NCBI GenBank assembly: GCA_013314815.1
Contig: JABUEY010000021.1
Location: 1-40,536, forward strand
From: Syntrophobacteraceae bacterium
GTDB lineage: Bacteria; Desulfobacterota; Syntrophobacteria; Syntrophobacterales; Syntrophobacteraceae
Direction: 5' to 3'
DNA length: 40,536 nucleotides
This document shows, piece after piece, positions 28,940 to 36,744 of the stretch. Positions within the stretch are counted from its first letter, which is position 1. Each line of letters begins with the position of its first letter. Below the pieces are notes generated by a model. It did not search any database. It had not been told where the DNA came from and saw only the letters and a list, made by a program, of their open reading frames with translations. A program made the position numbers and the translations under genes.

Positions 28940-30019
28940 TTACTTCCCCCGTGTTTCCTGCTGAGTTTTCGTTTTTTCGACTGAATTAAAGATGTGAATC
29001 TGGACTTCCTGGGCATCCTGAGGGTTGGTGTCGGTCTCGATGACCAGAGTCATCTGCTGCCGGGCGCCCGCCGGGATGTTCTCAATCTTGGGGATGACGT
29101 CCAGACTGTAGCCGGGTTCCTTGGGCAGAGGCTGCTGGACGATGTCGACCAGGTGCTCGTCGTAGGTGAGCCTGGTGATCTTGAACGGCTTGCCCCGGTT
29201 GCTCACCACCATCACCTTGCCCTGGCGTTCGGGCTGCTGTGGGGCGAGTTTTCCCACCAGAACGGTCTGAGGCTTGACGGCAATATCCCCTTCAATGAAC
29301 CCACTCACTCTCACGACGATTTCCGGTTTTTGAGGAACGTCGGTGAGGCACTTGACAAAGCCGCTGTAGCTGCCCTGTCTTACACGGTTCGAGATCTTCA
29401 GGCGATAATGCCTGCCGTCCTGAACCGTTTCCAGGCTGTAGGCGATCTTGTCTTCCAGGTTGCTTTCGACTTTCTGAATCTTGAAGGCCTGCGACGTGCT
29501 TACCATATCGACTGTGCTTTCACCGACCTGTTCGATGGTACCTCGAAAGGTGATGCCGCTCGACGGGCGCACGTCAATCAACGATCTGACCGTCCCCTGC
29601 ATGGTGATGACCAGTCGAGGTTTCTGCGGGTCATTGTTGAACACGCTGGCGCTTTTCTTGACGCTTCCCTGAAATCCTTTCAGGTCGATTTTCAGCTTGA
29701 TTTTTCCCTCGCCACCGGGAGGGATTGCCCGATCGAAATGGGCAACCGTGCAGCCTCAACCAGGGCGCACCTGGTCGATTTCCAGCGTCCCTTTTCCAGT
29801 GTTCTTTACCGCGAATTCATGTTCGACCATTGCTCCCTCGACCACTTCACCGAAATCGAAAACCGTTTCCGAAATCTGGATGGATGGATTTCCGTTTGTG
29901 CCGGACGAGGACGCCGAATCCGCCGGCGAACTTCTTGCCGCACAAGCCGGGTCTGGAGCGGAGCCGAGCCCCATGCACAGGGTTGCGATGACAAACATTC
30001 TGATCAAGGATCGGTGCAT
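28940..30019 (-). CDS. DUF1573 protein with in-frame UGA (candidate selenoprotein)
   Basis: Read through a single in-frame TGA at 29758-29756, the gene encodes 359 residues. The start MHRSLIRMF at 30019 has GGAG upstream and opens a signal peptide ending near PACA, so the product is exported. A DUF1573 domain follows: FDFGEVVEGAMVEHEFAVKN, then VRPG-UGA-GCTVAHFD, where the family has PGCGCT. So UGA (codon 88) takes the place of the first Cys of the CGC motif. Downstream the frame stays open without any other lesion for 271 codons. A hairpin at 29747-29722 begins 8 bases after the UGA. A C-terminal region of immunoglobulin-like segments follows. It may be a selenoprotein; a nonsense mutation or sequencing error is the alternative. 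Confidence 0.7.
29722..29747 (-). promoter_or_regulatory. Hairpin 3' of the in-frame UGA (SECIS candidate)
   Basis: On the minus strand GGTTGCCC pairs with GGGCAATCC with one bulged T, and the 9-base loop ATTTCGATC can fold further as AT-TTCG-AT. It begins 8 bases after the UGA and its loop is 16-18 bases from it, within the range of bacterial SECIS elements. The loop lacks a G in its first two positions, which the known consensus wants, so support is partial. The stem also encodes the conserved TVAHFD residues, so it could arise from coding constraint. Confidence 0.4.
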
Positions 30020-30184: not shown

Positions 30185-31510
30185 TCATCTGCCGGGCAGA
30201 TCGACGAGTTCCCCTGAAGGCACCACTTCGATTCCTTCACGGTGAAAACGGTCAGCGCTGCGGGACAGGACTTTGAGTGTGCATTCATACGGGTGGCCGA
30301 TGGCTATGGCGCTGCCATGGATCTTCGCCCTCCTGATGAGTTGATTGAGCTGGGACCGGACAAACTCCTCGGTCTGGGTGTGATCCAGGAAGATATCTCT
30401 TTGCGCGGCGGGGACTTTCAGCTTCCGCGCCAGAGTATACCCGGTGCTCTTGTGGGTTGTCCGGCTGTCCACGAAGAAAAGCTTTCTTTCGTGAAGTTCG
30501 GCAAGAAGAATGGTCATGGAGGATGATTCCTGGGTGAAACGAGAACCCATGTGATTGTTTACTCCCGAAAAATACGGGCTGACGTCAAGAGCCGAATGAA
30601 GGGTTTTCCTGATTTTATCCCTGGACATGGAAACGAGCAAAGCTCCTGTCCCGGGGTTGATTTTCGGGTATCCATGAGGTTCCATGGGCAGATGGAGCAG
30701 AACTTCGCGCCGGGCCGCATGGGCCATCTGCGCTATTTCCCTGCTGTGCGGTTCGTTCGGAAGCACGGAAAAGGTGATGGAGAGGGGGATTTCCAGGAAT
30801 TTCCGTGCCATCTCCACGCTTTGTCCGAAATCGTCGATGATAATCGCAACCCTGCCCACGGGAGGCACTCTGGCAGGAGGCGTGGGAGGCTTGTCCGGCT
30901 TTGTTGCGACGGAATTCGAGGGCTTGTTGAGGGCAAGCAGCGTCTTTTCCTGGGGGGGCTGCGGTCCTGCATTGTCCGCGTCGGAGGGGATGTCCCTCGA
31001 AACAATCTTGGGAGGCGGTTCGATGAGAGGCCTGCCCGGAGCGGCCGGCACCCGGTCTTCCGGCCTGTGGTTCAAGGGCGGCGGGGCAGGTGCGGCTGCA
31101 GGTGGGGAAGGGTCTCTTCGGTCAGGGGCTGTTTCTTTGGCGGAAGGTCTGGTGGACGCTGGAGGTGTGCCACGCGATTCAGGTGGAGCGGCAACGGGCG
31201 GAACCGCATTGCTCCGAGGCACCTCGACGGCGGATGGCGCCTCTTTCCCGACTGCGGCCTTTTCACTCCCTGTGGAACCACTCCAGTAAAGCAGCCCCCC
31301 CAGCACGGTAAGCGCAAGCAGCCACGCCGCCAGCATCGGCAGAAAGAGGCTCCTGGAGACCCCCCCGAGGAACCCGCCCTCTTTCTTTTTCCTGGTGGAG
31401 CTTCGTGAAGCGTTACCGGATCTTCTCGACGGAAGCCTCGTTGCCTGGCCTGATGCGCCGGATCCGCGCCTCGAAGAGCGTTTCCGCCCCGGGGTTACCT
31501 CTGGAGCCAT
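30185..31510 (-). CDS. Divergent polysaccharide deacetylase family protein
   Basis: A 441-residue protein with a short basic cytoplasmic N-terminus, one membrane segment at about 54-75, a proline/alanine-rich spacer up to about 215, and a C-terminal divergent polysaccharide deacetylase (YibQ-like) domain beginning VGRVAIIIDDFGQ. The domain holds HLPMEPHGYPKINPGTGALLVSMS, VNNHMGSRFTQ and VDSRTTHKSTGY, which match this family. The metal-binding triad of true deacetylases is altered, so enzymatic activity is uncertain. It lies 22 bases after the CtpA-type protease gene, a common pairing in Proteobacteria, and probably acts in the periplasm on cell-wall material. Confidence 0.85.
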   Translation of the reverse strand: MAPEVTPGRKRSSRRGSGASGQATRLPSRRSGNASRSSTRKKKEGGFLGGVSRSLFLPMLAAWLLALTVLGGLLYWSGSTGSEKAAVGKEAPSAVEVPRSNAVPPVAAPPESRGTPPASTRPSAKETAPDRRDPSPPAAAPAPPPLNHRPEDRVPAAPGRPLIEPPPKIVSRDIPSDADNAGPQPPQEKTLLALNKPSNSVATKPDKPPTPPARVPPVGRVAIIIDDFGQSVEMARKFLEIPLSITFSVLPNEPHSREIAQMAHAARREVLLHLPMEPHGYPKINPGTGALLVSMSRDKIRKTLHSALDVSPYFSGVNNHMGSRFTQESSSMTILLAELHERKLFFVDSRTTHKSTGYTLARKLKVPAAQRDIFLDHTQTEEFVRSQLNQLIRRAKIHGSAIAIGHPYECTLKVLSRSADRFHREGIEVVPSGELVDLPGR

Positions 31511-31532: not shown

Positions 31533-32846
31533 TCAGTTGAACTGCATCTGAGCCATGATCTTGTAGCTCTTCAGCAGCTCCAGTGCACGCCTGAGTTGAT
31601 TGTCCTGTTCGAGCATACGGGCCTCTTCCTGGCCCCGATCCTGCTTGGATGCGCCCGATTCGGGCTTATGATTCTCCATGTGCCGCGGAAGATCCTTCTC
31701 CCTCATGCGTTTGACTTCCTCCACCGGCTGATCTTCAGGCTTCGCCGGGGTTTCGCGTTTCACCAGGATATCGGGTTCTATGCCCTTGGCCTGGATGGAT
31801 CGGCCGGAGGGAGTGTAATAAAGCGATGTGGTAAGGCGCAGTGCGGAACCGTCGCTGAGCGGTATCACTGTCTGCACGGAGCCCTTGCCGAAGGTGGGTT
31901 CACCAAGAATGATCGCCCTCTTGTGATCCTGCAGCGCCCCCGCCACGATCTCGGATGCGCTGGCACTGCCCGAATTGACCAGGGCAACGATGGGATAGCT
32001 TCGAGGCTTGTTGTTTCTGCGTGCCTCGAAGCGCATCTTCTGGCTTTCGAGTCTTCCTCCGGTGTACACGATGAGACCTTCGTCCAGGAACTCGTCACTC
32101 ACCTCGACCGCCTGTTCCAGCAGACCTCCCGGGTCATTGCGCAGGTCGAGTATCAGGCCCTGCATCGGCTTGTTTTCAGTTTCGAGGTGATCGAGGGCCT
32201 TGCGGAGGTCCCCCGCAGTGCTGCTCTGAAAGCTGCTGATGCGCACGTAGCCGAACCCGGGCTCCAACGTACGATACTTCACGCTCTGAATGGAAATAAT
32301 ATCCCGCACCAGTTCGAATTCCAGCGGCTTTCGTTCTCCTTTGCGTATGATGGTGAGCTTGACCTTCGTACCTTTGGGACCGCGCATCTTCTGGACGGCG
32401 TCCATAAGGGACATGTCCTGTGTCGTCTGATCGTCGATTTTAATGATCTGGTCGTTGGCCAATAAGCCCGCCTTGTCGGCCGGAGTATCCTCGAGGGGGG
32501 CGACCACTGTCAGGATATTGTCGCGAATCGTGATTTCGATGCCCAGGCCGCCGAATTTGCCCCGGGTCTCGATCTGGAGTTCCTTGTAATCCTCGGGCTT
32601 CAGAAAGGAAGAATGGGGGTCGAGTTCGCGAAGCATTCCGCTGATGGCTCCGTACATCATCTTCTTGTGGTCCACCGGTTCCACGTAGTTTTCCTGAACG
32701 ATATTCAAGACGTCGCTAAACAACTTCAGGTACTGGTAAATATCCGGATTTTCGACGTTGCTCTTGGCTCTCAGGCCGGAGTACCCGAAAAACAACACCG
32801 CGAGAACAGAAAGCAAAACGATGAGCCTGGTCCTTTTCTTAACCAT
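31533..32846 (-). CDS. S41 C-terminal processing peptidase
   Basis: A 437-residue exported serine protease of the CtpA/Prc group. It starts MVKKRTRLIVLLSVLAVLFFGYSGLRA, an uncleaved or cleaved signal segment, then a PDZ domain (about 90-170, GGLGIEITIRDN...), and the S41 catalytic core with the Ser in NSGSASASEIVAGALQDHKR (S in GSASASE, with the paired Lys in FGKGSVQT). A coiled, acidic tail ends the protein. The start at 32846 is chosen for GAGGAAT upstream, over the longer frame to 32900. It processes or degrades periplasmic proteins. It is first in a likely operon with the divergent deacetylase. Confidence 0.93.
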   Translation of the reverse strand: MVKKRTRLIVLLSVLAVLFFGYSGLRAKSNVENPDIYQYLKLFSDVLNIVQENYVEPVDHKKMMYGAISGMLRELDPHSSFLKPEDYKELQIETRGKFGGLGIEITIRDNILTVVAPLEDTPADKAGLLANDQIIKIDDQTTQDMSLMDAVQKMRGPKGTKVKLTIIRKGERKPLEFELVRDIISIQSVKYRTLEPGFGYVRISSFQSSTAGDLRKALDHLETENKPMQGLILDLRNDPGGLLEQAVEVSDEFLDEGLIVYTGGRLESQKMRFEARRNNKPRSYPIVALVNSGSASASEIVAGALQDHKRAIILGEPTFGKGSVQTVIPLSDGSALRLTTSLYYTPSGRSIQAKGIEPDILVKRETPAKPEDQPVEEVKRMREKDLPRHMENHKPESGASKQDRGQEEARMLEQDNQLRRALELLKSYKIMAQMQFN

Positions 32847-33249
32847 AGGAAATTCCTCGTACATTAAATTAATCCAGGGCCGGCCGTTCCTTGAGATCAA
32901 GCGGTTTTTCAGGATGCTTCATGTCAAAATACAGCTCCCTGACCGATACTCCACTCTCTCTGACGGTGGCGACCTTTTCCCACTTGCCGCCCTTTCTCCG
33001 TGTTTCTCCCACACCTGCTCGGCCCCGGTCATTCAGACCTCGTCAGCTCTCCGAGCAGCCGATGATCGTCCTGCTCCGTACTCCCTTAACCAGCCGTAAA
33101 AAAGATCGGCGTCTCTCTCATGAACGGCGGTGGTGGGTTGTCCTTCCCAAGCCGTGACGAGTATGTTGTTACTATATAACATATTGCCTGAAGTGGCATA
33201 TGGTTTCATTCCATTATTTTGAGCATTTTCAGTTCGATTCCACGCAACA

Positions 33250-35713: not shown

Positions 35714-36634
35714 TCAGAACTTCGACCGACCGGGGCCCGGTTTGCGGGCGGGCATCGTCCCGCCTTTCTTCTCCCACAGGAAAAAGTCCCGGAAACATCT
35801 ACGCAAATTGCTATATATTCCCTTCCTGCTGTTGATCAAGTAGATACGATGCCGGATATGAAAGATTTCATCCACCAGCCGTTCCACATGCTCCTCCTCC
35901 CTGGATTCCCTCTGCTCGAAAGCCTCCTCGAACAGAGGAACGATCTTGTCCCGCATTCTTAGTTCCGTGTCGACCAGGAATGCTGCGATATGGGGCTGGA
36001 GATCCGTCAACCGGTTCAGGAAAGCGGAGACGGCTGGCAGCTCGACTCCCCTGGGCGGTGAGGATTTGACCTCCAGGTAAACGAGGTGCCCTCCGAGCAG
36101 GGCAATCACATCATAGTCTCCCCCGTGAAGGGTCTTCTGAAGGCGCACTCCGAAGAGTGCCGGCGACATGAATTCACGCTGGAATATTTCGCATACGTAC
36201 CACTCCAGTGTAGGCCCGAAGCTGGAAATGTGCCGAAGAAGCAATCGATAGCTCCTGTCTTCACGTGTCTCCACGATTCCCATGTCCGCCAGGGACTTGA
36301 GGTAGGAACGAACTGTCTTCAGTGAGCAGTAGCGGGCCAGCCTGGCATGATCATCGCCTTCCTGAAACTGGATGAGATCCCTGAGGAAGAGGCGGAAGGA
36401 ATATCTCTGCATGAGTCTGTAGAGGCGGGTTCCGTGTTCATTGTTCATGTCCTGGGGAAGAAGGACATGAGAACGGTCTCCATGGGCGTGGACGGGTAGA
36501 CCTCTCTGCCGGAGCATCGCTTCGACGGGATGCTCCCGGTCGGTCAACAGCCGCCTGAGTTCATGCACTTCCTCTCTGAGCCGGAACAGATCGGCTTTTA
36601 GAGACTCCACATCTTTCTTGAGGCTCGGGGTCAT
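35714..36634 (-). CDS. Predicted PD-(D/E)XK nuclease-like protein with wHTH
   Basis: A 306-residue soluble protein of unknown role. An N-terminal coiled coil (about 1-35) precedes a helical part and a likely winged helix (about 95-135: LARYCSLKTVRSYLKSLADMGIVETR). The C-terminal half resembles a PD-(D/E)XK fold: LEWYVCEIFQ as the first helix with a Glu, GGDYDVIAL (D173, D175), then HLVYLEVKSS (E188, K190), which is the D...ExK spacing of this nuclease fold. The ATG at 36634 is preferred over a GTG at 36715, which lacks a ribosome binding site. It may act on nucleic acid in repair or defence, or be a structural member of the fold; this rests on motifs. Confidence 0.6.
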   Translation of the reverse strand: MTPSLKKDVESLKADLFRLREEVHELRRLLTDREHPVEAMLRQRGLPVHAHGDRSHVLLPQDMNNEHGTRLYRLMQRYSFRLFLRDLIQFQEGDDHARLARYCSLKTVRSYLKSLADMGIVETREDRSYRLLLRHISSFGPTLEWYVCEIFQREFMSPALFGVRLQKTLHGGDYDVIALLGGHLVYLEVKSSPPRGVELPAVSAFLNRLTDLQPHIAAFLVDTELRMRDKIVPLFEEAFEQRESREEEHVERLVDEIFHIRHRIYLINSRKGIYSNLRRCFRDFFLWEKKGGTMPARKPGPGRSKF

Positions 36635-36744
36635 GTCCAATATCCTGTCTCCGGGTCTTGTGGATGTTCGACGCAGAGCCGTAGAATGCCGCTTCCGCCC
36701 GCTGCGGATTTCCACAAGTCAACATTATAATACCACAAATCAGA

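Follow-up and report, generated by a model that had tools for sequence, protein, structure and literature searches.

The window, that is, the whole stretch of 40,536 nucleotides analysed here (contig JABUEY010000021.1 of a Syntrophobacteraceae bacterium), carries on its minus strand a gene of the DUF1573 family preceded by genes for a divergent polysaccharide deacetylase and a peptidase (Table 1). The open reading frame runs from ATG to TAA with a single in-frame TGA, around which the read-through protein reads ...VRPG-U-GCTVAHFDRAIPPGGEG..., the UGA replacing the first Cys of the CGC motif to give UGC. PF07610 (DUF1573) matched this protein with 79 bits (cut-off 26) over positions 1-98 of its 98, corresponding to residues 47-144, and the NCBIfam model NF041425, "OS_HP2 family (seleno)protein", matched it with 116 bits (cut-off 100). 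Since the DUF1573 match covers the whole profile and spans the TGA, the reading frame is intact on both sides of it. The open reading frame and the column alignment thus confirmed two statements of the preliminary description, namely that a lone in-frame UGA occupies the position of the first motif Cys and that the remainder of the gene is intact.

Table 1. Coordinates of the DUF1573 gene, its elements and its upstream neighbours in the window.
Feature	Position	Strand	Remarks
Very probable DUF1573/OS_HP2 selenoprotein gene	28940..30019	-	359 residues, Sec at 88, Cys at 90
In-frame UGA, proposed selenocysteine codon (codon 88)	29756..29758	-	
Cys90 codon, proposed redox partner of Sec88	29750..29752	-	bond putative
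DUF1573 domain, first of three Ig-like domains	29588..29881	-	
SECIS hairpin	29723..29747	-	arms 29747-29740 / 29730-29723, loop 29739-29731; based on covariation
YibQ-type divergent polysaccharide deacetylase, next gene upstream in the conserved row	30185..31510	-	
S41 peptidase of CtpA type, opening the conserved row	31533..32900	-	

The same description knew of no report of DUF1573 as a selenoprotein family, and this remark does not hold: the family has been listed since 2007 as OS_HP2 and has its own model, NF041425. OS_HP2 is credited in later papers to Zhang & Gladyshev 2007, with the delta symbiont of Olavius algarvensis as its source. The Global Ocean Sampling survey of 2008 gives OS_HP2 (pfam07610) with the motif UxC and 2 Sec and 354 Cys sequences (PMC2398784), and two reviews list a DUF1573 domain-containing protein with the motif UGC from Zhang & Gladyshev 2007 (PMC9312934; PMC13188914). 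Because OS_HP2/pfam07610 stands in these published tables, the window gene belongs to an already known selenoprotein family. It shares with OS_HP2 the domain, the motif, the Sec position and a score above the cut-off of NF041425, with no essential difference. In contrast, the short paralogues of the same genome scored below this cut-off (74-82 bits against 100), and two of them lack the second motif Cys. The Cys-containing members of PF07610 have the same domain and the same alignment column but CGC in place of UGC.

Throughout the whole genome, PF07610 recovered five DUF1573 genes, each with exactly one in-frame TGA, and all five TGA codons fell in a single alignment column. The corresponding motifs are PGUGC in the window gene and in L002, PGUGL in L003, PGUGS in L004 and VGUGC in L005. 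The recurrence of one TGA in the same column of all five genes indicates that the TGA of the window gene is not due to chance. We then considered 60 genomes, this one included, of which 47 carry the family; most DUF1573 copies in these 47 genomes have one TGA. The Sec column was placed by profile search of the loci, leaving out seven further rows that correspond to other Ig repeats, and the resulting 74 copies, drawn from this genome and its relatives, had TGA there in 57 cases, TGC or TGT in 14, and ACA, TCA and TGG in one each. The exchange of Sec and Cys between homologues, which had been proposed as a check, was thus found. Short copies additional to these 74 had TGA in the motif in 17 of 17 cases. 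One long-form copy (L028, genome G003, site 1612, minus strand) has ACA (Thr) at the Sec column and keeps a complete hairpin; its genome nonetheless has selA and tRNA-Sec. We therefore rejected a loss of the Sec machinery in the genus where Thr and Ser occupy this column, and the change there must have another cause.

The preliminary description placed the start of a stem-loop 8 bases past the UGA, which is true of the window gene through one extra pair, 29747 with 29723 (+9:+33). The conserved stem pairs 29746-29740 with 29730-29724, i.e., +10 to +16 with +26 to +32 after the UGA, and encloses a loop of 9 bases located 17-25 bases after the UGA. Folded as a single sequence, the window hairpin was no more stable than shuffled sequences (z -0.5), and since single-sequence folding (z about 0) gave no support we relied on pair counts across relatives. 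Across all 51 Sec copies of canonical spacing, 86% of the stem cells were paired, against only 28-52% in the same copies when the partner was slid by -6 to +9 columns. The pair +12:+30 was formed in 82% versus 41% expected, and this pairing cannot be explained by protein constraint because both bases are third-codon positions. When the two codons were Val (GTN) and Ala (GCN), +12:+30 paired in 24 of 24 copies (C-G 9, G-C 8, U-A 5, U-G 1, A-U 1), with a permutation p of about 1e-5 from permutations that ignore kinship between copies; common descent alone would nevertheless hardly account for several different pair types at a single synonymous site across many genera. For 39 of the 51 Sec sequences, 90% of positions were paired with two-sided changes in 5 of the 7 pairs, and the covariation score was reached by none of 500 shuffles. 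RNAalifold predicted the same stem unaided. Compensatory changes at synonymous positions were thus present in the homologues, where the hairpin had been suggested as a check. Pairing is incomplete in some copies, and in most Cys copies the hairpin is absent or partial. Some copies without Sec retain much of the stem, as expected if they descended from Sec copies.

The genome also encodes the machinery for selenocysteine. We found selB (382 bits), selA (511 bits, interrupted by a contig end), two selD genes and a tRNA-Sec with a UCA anticodon (selC), that is, all four of the components whose presence was to be verified. Among the 60 genomes, selA was present in 59, and the sole genome without it, G059, has a Cys copy of DUF1573. 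One of the two selD genes (G000:C33:38009-38932; L019:1501-2424) itself contains an in-frame TGA, like the known Sec-containing SelD, and the other has none. Separately, contig C208 (L007:1020-1108, L015:1483-3450) carries a second SelB-like gene downstream of a tRNA, with an FlpD gene between them. This tRNA has a GCA anticodon, U73 and an acceptor stem of 8 bp, and its T stem seems to contain an A bulge; the arrangement fits the selC*/selB* pairs reported for Syntrophobacterales and Desulfobacterales (PMC7609411).

The TGA could in principle have arisen from a Cys codon by random nonsense mutation in a decaying pseudogene, or be a sequencing error, as TGA is one base away from TGC and TGT and the assembly is a 245-contig draft; this explanation is refuted because five paralogues, like 57 of 74 copies across many genera, have this TGA and because the accompanying hairpin is kept by compensatory changes, and we regard it as extremely improbable. 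A reassignment of TGA in this genome, for example to Trp, would account for the open frame alone, and we give it a still smaller, practically negligible probability: TGA is the stop of seven of the nine window neighbours checked and lies in frame within none of the nine, which excludes a reassigned code in the window, and the residue that substitutes for TGA in relatives is Cys, not Trp. Reading of the UGA as Cys by the SelB-like factor of C208 and its tRNA-Sec-like cysteine tRNA would make the product an ordinary Cys protein. The genome does possess such a tRNA and a second SelB, and selC* tRNAs with a UCA anticodon occur in some Desulfobacterales (PMC7609411), but the GCA anticodon of the C208 tRNA pairs with UGC and UGU rather than UGA, and a true tRNA-Sec (UCA) and a canonical selB are present, so that this reading, too, is very improbable. 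The in-frame UGA of the window gene almost certainly encodes selenocysteine, judging from the sequences compared. The candidate selenoprotein of the preliminary description is supported by the column, the covarying hairpin and the Sec machinery, and nothing that this description named as a refutation came to light. The best overall explanation, which we hold to be very probable, is that the window gene is an OS_HP2/DUF1573 selenoprotein of the known family whose UGA is read as Sec.

An AlphaFold2 model of the window protein, built with 28 homologues (mean pLDDT 88.9), exhibited an N-terminal helix and a low-confidence stretch followed by all-beta Ig-like domains. Judged by eye, model and sequence suggest a signal peptide, and the protein is probably exported. 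In the model, Sec88 falls in the turn that joins strands 79-86 and 90-95 of the first Ig-like domain. With the model as query, Foldseek retrieved arrays of Ig (HYDIN-type among others) or cadherin domains with low sequence identity, and PF22544 (HYDIN/ASH-type Ig) also matched the window protein. Profile and structure thus agree on a shared Ig fold, but the likeness does not extend beyond the fold: the solved HYDIN/ASH-type arrays found are structural cilia proteins about 10-16% identical to the window protein. Searching solved structures by sequence yielded a single hit, which fell short of significance (2qsv, E 0.079).

The position of the Cys that accompanies Sec separated the copies by length. 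Where 90 or more residues follow Sec, a Cys was found at +2 in 42 of 42 Sec copies and at +22 to +33 in none. In the 27 short single-domain Sec copies without a Cys at +2, a Cys was found at +27 or +28 in 27 of 27, although the short copies of one lineage are related and these are not 27 independent events. Four of the remaining short Sec copies have both the +2 and the +27/28 Cys, and one has only the former. The short Sec copies with a Cys at +27/28 are L003-L005, L064-L069, L078, L085-L088 and L106-L122, most of them without the +2 Cys; L108 and L109, with Ala at +1, were counted by eye among the short copies. Strand order in the model would place +28 in the turn that follows strand 104-112 and would bring this turn and the Sec turn to one end of the domain. 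A partner Cys that is mobile and yet present in every Sec copy examined supports a Sec-Cys pair. We lean slightly towards the existence of two classes of DUF1573 selenoproteins, with the same Sec and a partner Cys at +2 in the long, three-domain form or at +27/28 in many single-domain forms. This shift of the partner Cys in single-domain paralogues is possibly new. The published selenoprotein tables, in the parts available, give only the UGC/UxC motif for DUF1573, and the accessible portions of the DUF1573 literature did not mention five Sec paralogues in a single genome, SECIS covariation, the gene row described below or a moved partner Cys.

We know of no function or enzyme activity for DUF1573. 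In the working that we propose, the ribosome would read UGA codon 88 as Sec by means of SelB, tRNA-Sec(UCA) and the downstream hairpin, and Sec88, two residues before Cys90, would most likely form a reversible selenenylsulfide with it. The Sec-Cys pair may then serve redox chemistry (or metal handling) in the cell envelope, where CtpA and YibQ would be its neighbours. This proposed redox role is drawn from the pattern of residues and the model. It is possible, if rather unlikely, that Sec is inserted and the UGC site binds a metal, such as Hg or Cu, without selenenylsulfide cycling; a Sec and a Cys near each other would suit a soft metal, and the want of a known enzyme activity is in keeping with this, but most Sec families consist of redox proteins (PMC9312934). 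The moved partner Cys fits metal binding and redox alike.

The gene order ctpA-yibQ-DUF1573 (long form) was recovered in nine of 11 loci read from relatives and in two families of the taxonomic order, and frequently faces the haem genes ahbC-hemB-ahbD, whose ahb members we name by the radical SAM/SPASM domains encoded next to hemB. Both CtpA and YibQ belong to the cell envelope, in agreement with export of the DUF1573 protein, and the conserved row suggests an envelope role for the long form. Elsewhere in the window, a 333-residue open reading frame (35714-36715, minus strand) had no Pfam match, and two other genomes have relatives of it, at 64-77% identity, close to this gene row; phage records compared with the window region gave no match.

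Under standard annotation, the UGA would truncate the window gene and likewise each of its four paralogues. The conserved order ctpA-yibQ-DUF1573 provides a first lead on the site of action of the protein. A fixed Sec with a movable partner Cys would point to an Ig domain bearing a site, probably extracytoplasmic, for thiol/selenol redox chemistry or metal binding, and if the two classes are real, the geometry of a Sec-Cys active site would have been rearranged within one family.
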